Source of the DNA: Longimicrobium sp.
GTDB lineage: Bacteria > Gemmatimonadota > Gemmatimonadetes > Longimicrobiales > Longimicrobiaceae
DNA: 35,522 nt
Direction: 5' to 3'
NCBI GenBank assembly: GCA_036389795.1
Contig: DASVWD010000165.1
Span: 1-35,522 of the forward strand
Both the position numbers and the translations under genes were made by a program. The notes below the pieces were generated by a model, which saw only the letters and a list, made by a program, of their open reading frames with translations, was not told the origin of the DNA and did not search any database. The first letter of the stretch is position 1, and the number at the start of each line of letters is the position of its first letter. This document shows positions 34,363 through 35,522 of this stretch, in pieces.

Positions 34363-35325
34363 ATGGCTACCAGTTCCGGGCCCACCCGGCTGATCTGGCG
34401 CGACGGGCGCCTGGTCGACTGGAAGGACGCCACCATCCACGTGATGAGCCACGTCGCGCACTACGGCTCCAGCGTGTTCGAGGGGATCCGCTGCTACGAG
34501 ACCTCCGCGGGCCCCGCCATCTTCCGCCTGCGCGACCACATCCGCCGCCTGGCCGACTCGGCGCGCATCTACCGCATCCCGATGCGCTGGTCGGTGGAGG
34601 AGCTGTGCGAGGCCGCGGTGGAGACGGTGGCCGCCAACGAGGTGCCGCACTGCTACCTGCGCCCGGTGGTGATGCGCACCGGCGAGCAGATGGGGATCCT
34701 GGCGAACGACGAGCACGTGGAGACCTTCGTCATCGCCTACATCTGGGGGACGTACCTGGGCGAGGGGGCGCTGGAGAACGGGGTCGACGCGGTGGTCTCC
34801 ACCTGGCGTCGCGCGGCGCCCGACACCTACCCCACGCTGGCCAAGGCCGGCGGCGGCTACCTGAACTCGCAGCTCGCCAAGATCGAGGCCAGGCAGCGCC
34901 GCGCCGACGAGGCGATCATGCTCGACTCCTTCGGCCACGTGTCGGAGGGGACCGGGCAGAACCTGTTCGTGGTGCGCGACGACATGCTGTGGACCTCGCC
35001 GATCTCAGCCGGGATCCTGGCGGGGGTGACGCGCAACTCGGTGACCCGCATCGCCCGCGACCTGGGGTACACGGTGCGCGAGGAGAGCCTGCCGCGCGAG
35101 CTGCTCTACATCGCCGACGAGGTGTTCTTCACCGGCACGGCGGCCGAGATCACCCCCGTGCGCACGGTGGACGGCGTCCCCGTGGGCGAGGGGCGTCCGG
35201 GCCCCGTCACGCGGGAGATCCAGGACCGCTTCCTGGGCATCGCCCGCGGCCAGATCCCCGACCCCTACGGCTGGCTCACCCCGGTCCCCGCGCGCGAGCC
35301 CGCCGGCGCCGGCGTGGGCTCCTGA
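34363..35325 (+). CDS. ilvE: Branched-chain amino-acid aminotransferase
   Basis: Last step of isoleucine, leucine and valine synthesis (and first step of their breakdown): transfers an amino group using pyridoxal phosphate. At 320 residues it is a normal class IV aminotransferase. HYGSSVFEGIRCYET is the family N-terminal motif, Lys161 in PTLAKAGGGYLNSQLAK is the PLP lysine, and EAIMLDSFGHVSEGTGQNLFVV and FFTGTAAEITPV complete the cofactor site. It stands alone with its own promoter candidate and terminator; no other ilv/leu gene is in the window. Confidence 0.95.
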   Translation: MATSSGPTRLIWRDGRLVDWKDATIHVMSHVAHYGSSVFEGIRCYETSAGPAIFRLRDHIRRLADSARIYRIPMRWSVEELCEAAVETVAANEVPHCYLRPVVMRTGEQMGILANDEHVETFVIAYIWGTYLGEGALENGVDAVVSTWRRAAPDTYPTLAKAGGGYLNSQLAKIEARQRRADEAIMLDSFGHVSEGTGQNLFVVRDDMLWTSPISAGILAGVTRNSVTRIARDLGYTVREESLPRELLYIADEVFFTGTAAEITPVRTVDGVPVGEGRPGPVTREIQDRFLGIARGQIPDPYGWLTPVPAREPAGAGVGS

Positions 35326-35350: not shown

Positions 35351-35377
35351 AGGGCGGGCCCCCGCGGGGCCCGCCCT
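35351..35377 (+). terminator. Terminator of ilvE
   Basis: Arms 35352-35362 and 35366-35376 are a perfect 11-bp GC stem with a 3-nt loop, extended by an A-T pair (35351/35377), followed by TTCGCC. A group II intron-like sequence starts 8 nt further on. Confidence 0.8.
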
Positions 35378-35384
35378 TCGCCGT

Positions 35385-35522
35385 GTGTGCCCAGCATGGA
35401 CAGTGGTCAGGAGGTGAAAGTCCTCCCGGAACTTGGTCGTAGGGACCGAAGCGAGCCGCAAGGCGCCGACCGCGAGGGGAGCGCTGAAAGAAGCGGGGTA
35501 GCGAACCCGTCGAGCCGACGAA
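35385..35522 (+). mobile_element. 5' end of a group II intron (probably IIC), cut by the window edge
   Basis: The sequence from about 35385 opens GTGTGCCCAGCATGG, followed by the hairpin GGAGG-TGAAAGT-CCTCC at 35410-35426, GGTC..GACC at 35435-35447 and GCC-GCAA-GGC (a GNRA tetraloop) at 35455-35464. GTGTG as first bases and the GAGGTGAAAGTCCTC element are hallmarks of bacterial group II intron domain I. Insertion directly behind a terminator hairpin is the habit of group IIC introns. No reverse-transcriptase frame is visible because it would lie to the right of the window. The exact first base could be 35383 or 35385. Confidence 0.78.

Follow-up and report, generated by a model that had tools for sequence, protein, structure and literature searches.

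A group IIC-type intron begins behind the ilvE hairpin at the end of a Longimicrobium contig and has near-identical copies that probably lack a reverse transcriptase gene

The window, a stretch of 35,522 nucleotides, represents the entire contig C165 of a 7.5 Mb Longimicrobium genome assembled in 285 contigs. Towards its right-hand end it encodes a branched-chain amino acid transaminase, IlvE, which scores 389 bits against TIGR01122 (cut-off 245.55), 394 bits against NF005146 and 159 bits against PF01063 (Table 1). The gene is followed by a perfect hairpin with an 11-bp core (GGGCGGGCCCC-CGC-GGGGCCCGCCC, 35352-35376), which becomes a 12-bp stem when the closing A35351-T35377 pair is included, and this region folds with an energy of -38.5 kcal/mol (z = -4.66). 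The hairpin has no T-run and a pattern scan for U-tailed terminators gave no match there, so that its designation as a presumed intrinsic terminator derives from its position and from the parallel intron sites described below. The few bases between hairpin and intron have counterparts (CGT, CTCGT, TCGT and CGTT) behind the hairpins of other intron copies and are expected, from their position, to hold IBS1.

Table 1. Features at the right-hand end of the window
Feature	Coordinates	Strand	Basis or remark
ilvE, branched-chain amino acid transaminase	34363..35325	+	gene upstream of the intron insertion; TIGR01122, NF005146, PF01063
Hairpin 3′ of ilvE, perfect 12 bp (presumed terminator)	35351..35377	+	11 bp without the closing A-T pair
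5′ exon tail TCGCCGT (predicted to hold IBS1)	35378..35384	+	position; similar short tails elsewhere
Group IIC-type intron, first 138 nt (start of domain I)	35385..35522	+	cut by contig end; copies, full-length relatives, conserved boundary, covariation
Domain I hairpin (GGAGGTGAAAGTCCTCC)	35410..35426	+	covariation in relatives

The final 138 nucleotides almost certainly form the start of a mobile group IIC-type intron, which lies behind the ilvE hairpin in the same orientation as the gene; this degree of confidence applies to the group IIC-type intron itself, its possible ORF-less nature being graded separately below. The intron opens with GTGTGCCCAGCATGG (35385-35399), in which the initial GTGTG fits the group II 5′ boundary GUGYG, and includes GAGGTGAAAGTCCTC (35411-35425); neither of the core strings, GTGTGCCCAGC and GTGAAAGTC, has a second occurrence in the window. 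It begins 7 nt after the 12-bp hairpin, or 8 nt after its 11-bp core, in agreement with the spacing of about 8 nt from the last base of a perfect stem that was given in an earlier reading of this DNA from sequence only (hereafter the sequence-only reading). The domain I hairpin has a GGAGG-CCTCC stem enclosing TGAAAGT, and all five of its pairs are kept in nine of nine relatives, one of them with a two-sided change from A-U to G-C (columns 26-42). When nine 5′ ends drawn from the whole phylum were folded together with RNAalifold, the consensus structure contained seven pairs that have changed on both sides. Rfam gave no match above the gathering score in the window, and the best match in its last 1.5 kb reached only 20.5 bits (E 0.054, below threshold), as domain I is cut by the contig end. 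When folded alone the 138 nt are no more stable than shuffled sequences (z 0.29). An alternative start at 35383 (GTGTGTG) was rejected on the grounds that the two bases before 35385 vary among the relatives, and the start at 35385 that was originally proposed coincides with the boundary conserved in them.

Matches to the 138 nt are present in 36 of 395 sampled Gemmatimonadota genomes. The closest full-length introns, in genomes G011, G001 and G016 (G011:C65, G001:C218 and G016:C95), are 96-99% identical over this segment, extend over 1890-1898 nt, beginning with GTGTGCCC and finishing with CCCGAT, and have the same boundaries and sites behind a hairpin; a more distant intron in G012 measures 1908 nt. 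These full-length relatives score 102-107 bits against RF02001 (group-II-D1D4-3; gathering score 32), 39-45 bits against RF01998 and about 41 bits against Intron_gpII. The suggestion that the start and hairpin in the window match bacterial group II 5′ ends is thus borne out, since relatives of such high identity continue into the group-II-D1D4 models. They encode an RT/maturase (TIGR04416, 418-421 bits; cut-off 300) with RVT_1 and GIIM domains and no endonuclease domain, which in G001 is an open frame of 485 aa. The best solved relative of this protein is the GsI-IIC RT (476 bits), against 142 bits for LtrA. Degenerate copies also occur: in G012:C88 (L065) an in-frame TAG splits the RT frame, and this copy is probably a pseudogene, and in G012:C34 (L068) a 5′ intron fragment lies behind a hairpin and loses similarity after about 70 nt, so that truncated remnants do exist.

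Within the Longimicrobium genome itself the intron 5′ end (136-140 nt) is found at eight contig ends, the ilvE copy included, and is 99-100% identical over the intron. Recurrence at these eight contig ends and in relatives that possess full-length introns excludes a chance resemblance, and the contig stops at position 35522 because short reads did not bridge the intron, a repeat with at least eight copies in this genome. A single group II 3′ end of 137-143 nt, 100% identical among its copies, is found at the beginning or end of seven other contigs; it comprises domains V and VI, lies outside the window and scores 45.9 bits against RF00029 (gathering score 40). Domains V and VI of these 3′ ends have a bulged A located 8 nt from the 3′ end and fold with a z of -4.91, and the domain V pairs covary. 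Domain V reads CCGC-CGUAU, which may represent the CGC triad of class C. Searches for further 5′ or 3′ ends of this intron family in the genome returned none, and the same searches found ends of 76-82% identity in relatives. From their numbers we infer that the 5′ and 3′ ends, which are located on separate contigs, belong to one element. A comparison of the ilvE 5′ flank with the seven 3′ flanks by synteny with G012 gave scattered short matches in translated searches and no pairing.

The insertion sites follow a uniform pattern. A hairpin precedes each of the 31 distinct 5′ ends from this genome and its Gemmatimonadota relatives, where a site was scored by a stem of 11 bp or more, counting G-T pairs, within 14 nt before the intron; hairpins of this kind are found at 94 of 9980 window positions (0.9%). 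All eight 5′ ends of the Longimicrobium genome are among these sites, and a U tract is missing from several of the other site hairpins as well as from that of ilvE. The proposal that the intron occupies an IIC-type site behind the ilvE hairpin accordingly stands, both in the identity of the gene (TIGR01122) and in the 31 of 31 sites located behind hairpins. Class C introns are known to insert behind intrinsic terminators (PMC4424553; PMC8919778). An ilvE orthologue in G012 (74% identical), where the hairpin is followed by no intron, offers a natural insertion-free site, although its flanks could not be matched any further. One copy in the Longimicrobium genome (L021) lies behind an apparent tRNA-Leu gene, as judged by eye. 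In G016, intron copies (L045, L051, L056 and L060) abut a repeated palindrome, CACAGAGGCACRGAGA..TCTCYGTGCCTCTGTG, with zero spacer, and in these cases a repeat family serves as the landing site.

A second lineage of the intron is encountered in relatives, measuring about 0.66 kb where whole, from which the RT has been deleted but which retains sequence matching both RT ends. Its members are the intron in G001:C531 (664 nt) and those in G017 and G010:C46. The two kinds of end in the Longimicrobium genome have opposite affinities. The 5′ ends are 96-99% identical to the RT-bearing introns (G011:C65, G001:C218 and G016:C95; 1.89-1.90 kb) and just 76-80% identical to the ORF-less ones where these are visible (G001 and G017), whereas the 3′ ends are 85-91% identical to the ORF-less lineage and 80-82% identical to the RT-bearing introns. 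The approximately 58 nt that precede domain V align with the domain IV remnant of the ORF-less introns rather than the C-terminus of the RT. A domain V pair, U10-A27, is shared with the ORF-less lineage, where the RT-bearing relatives have G-C. This pair was rejected as an unfailing sign that the ORF is lost, because the intron in G254:C48 is ORF-less yet has the RT-type pair. This intron (L191) and that in G187:C4 (L196) belong to the same family, lie outside the Longimicrobium family and are independently ORF-deleted or RT-truncated, which implies that ORF loss has happened more than once.

No group II intron RT was detected in the Longimicrobium assembly with RVT_1 and TIGR04416, the interiors of the intron copies being unassembled, and a search of the genome for the middle of the ORF-less intron found none. 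The same pattern is observed in G017, a genome that is 98% complete in about 60 contigs and has four 3′ ends of the ORF-less type and no RT above the cut-off. Since the 5′ and 3′ ends have opposite affinities and no other ends of the family are present in the genome, the simplest reading is a single mosaic, probably ORF-less. Judged by these sequence affinities, the Longimicrobium copies are likely to consist of a complete ribozyme core without an RT gene, in which a 5′ part of the RT-bearing type is joined to a 3′ part of the ORF-less type. A fuller account, which we offer tentatively, is that at least eight near-identical ORF-less IIC mosaics have moved recently, and that the exchange of the 5′ part may have matched them to a driver RT that is now not visible. 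The sequence-only reading had located the remainder of the intron just outside the window, together with a possible RT. Its first part is supported by domains V and VI, which lie about 1.8 kb further on in full-length relatives; the RT may not hold, given the 3′ ends of the ORF-less type and an assembly without RT in which the intron interior is unassembled.

It is possible, but unlikely, that the intron is instead an ordinary autonomous RT-bearing IIC element of about 1.9 kb whose RT is hidden in the collapsed, unassembled middle. The high identity of its 5′ end to RT-bearing introns would be expected in this case, and the interiors of repeats do drop out of assemblies: G016 shows 12 5′ ends and an equal number of 3′ ends, and only the copy in C95 is assembled through with its RT. 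Against this, all seven 3′ ends are closer to the ORF-less introns, the segment before domain V aligns with ORF-less domain IV, and the assembly is without an RT. The differing affinities of the two ends could also be explained by two intron families, one RT-bearing with eight copies of which only 5′ ends are seen and the other ORF-less with seven copies of which only 3′ ends are seen. This requires the 3′ ends of the one and the 5′ ends of the other all to be missing, although in relatives the searches pick up 5′ and 3′ ends of either kind and the G016 copies show both ends, and we therefore consider it very improbable. Least credible of all is that the similarity is accidental, or that a 5′ fragment cut short and without a 3′ end lies at ilvE. 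The contig does stop inside the element and such fragments exist (for example G012:C34), but eight near-identical copies that stop at an equal depth of 136-140 nt indicate a repeat break and not independent truncation.

The mosaic, probably ORF-less copies resemble bacterial group IIC introns in their terminator-like hairpin sites and small ribozyme, and the RT of their relatives shares with these introns the absence of an endonuclease domain and, as judged by sequence similarity, a closest match to GsI-IIC. They differ from them in having a Longimicrobium-type Gemmatimonadota host, in being apparently ORF-less, and in that some of the hairpins are devoid of a U tract. Among the relatives, the G001:C531 intron and the related ones in G017 and G010 are like the Longimicrobium copies in the 3′ end, the domain V pair and the domain IV remnant, and unlike them in the 5′ end. 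TeI3 and TeI4 of Thermosynechococcus elongatus are class IIB/CL introns that are not known to be terminator-bound. They are comparable to the present family in that RT-bearing and ORF-less forms occur side by side (PMC2882425), and their ORF-less forms retain remnants of both ORF ends and outnumber the RT-bearing ones (PMC2882425).

In the mechanism that we propose, the intron RNA, bound by an RT/maturase, would recognise the DNA hairpin and the few bases after it, would reverse-splice behind the hairpin and would then be copied into DNA. Group IIC RNPs recognise a hairpin together with a short IBS1 before they reverse-splice into the site, and class C introns identify their exons through IBS1 and IBS3 with no EBS2. 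For introns that lack an endonuclease domain, the replication fork supplies the primer (PMC4424553). ORF-less copies would depend on RT supplied in trans. Mobilisation of this kind has been demonstrated for the Thermosynechococcus introns (PMC2882425), and by analogy with these we infer that the Longimicrobium copies, which presumably splice, may move with RT provided in trans. The position of the insertion, beyond the hairpin, should make it of little cost to ilvE.

These observations confirm a mobile ribozyme family in Gemmatimonadota that is located systematically on the 3′ side of genes, and a literature search found no dedicated work for this phylum. The intron repeat also accounts for where many of the contigs in the genome end. 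The kind of element is already known, and the aspect of most interest is that it is plausibly, though not demonstrably, a non-autonomous mosaic. Bacterial introns without an ORF have been described as rare (PMC4424553); if the ORF-less mosaic is true, the Longimicrobium copies would constitute a second system, of class IIC, of multiplied non-autonomous group II introns.

A group II intron of a different type is also present in the same genome, on the minus strand of G000:C28 (L031, approximately 1880-2640), where it is assembled whole at about 0.7 kb. No RT was found in this intron, which scores 71.5 bits against RF02003 and 46.6 bits against RF00029 and possesses a domain V of the AGC kind, starting with GAGCCGGAUGCGGGAAA.
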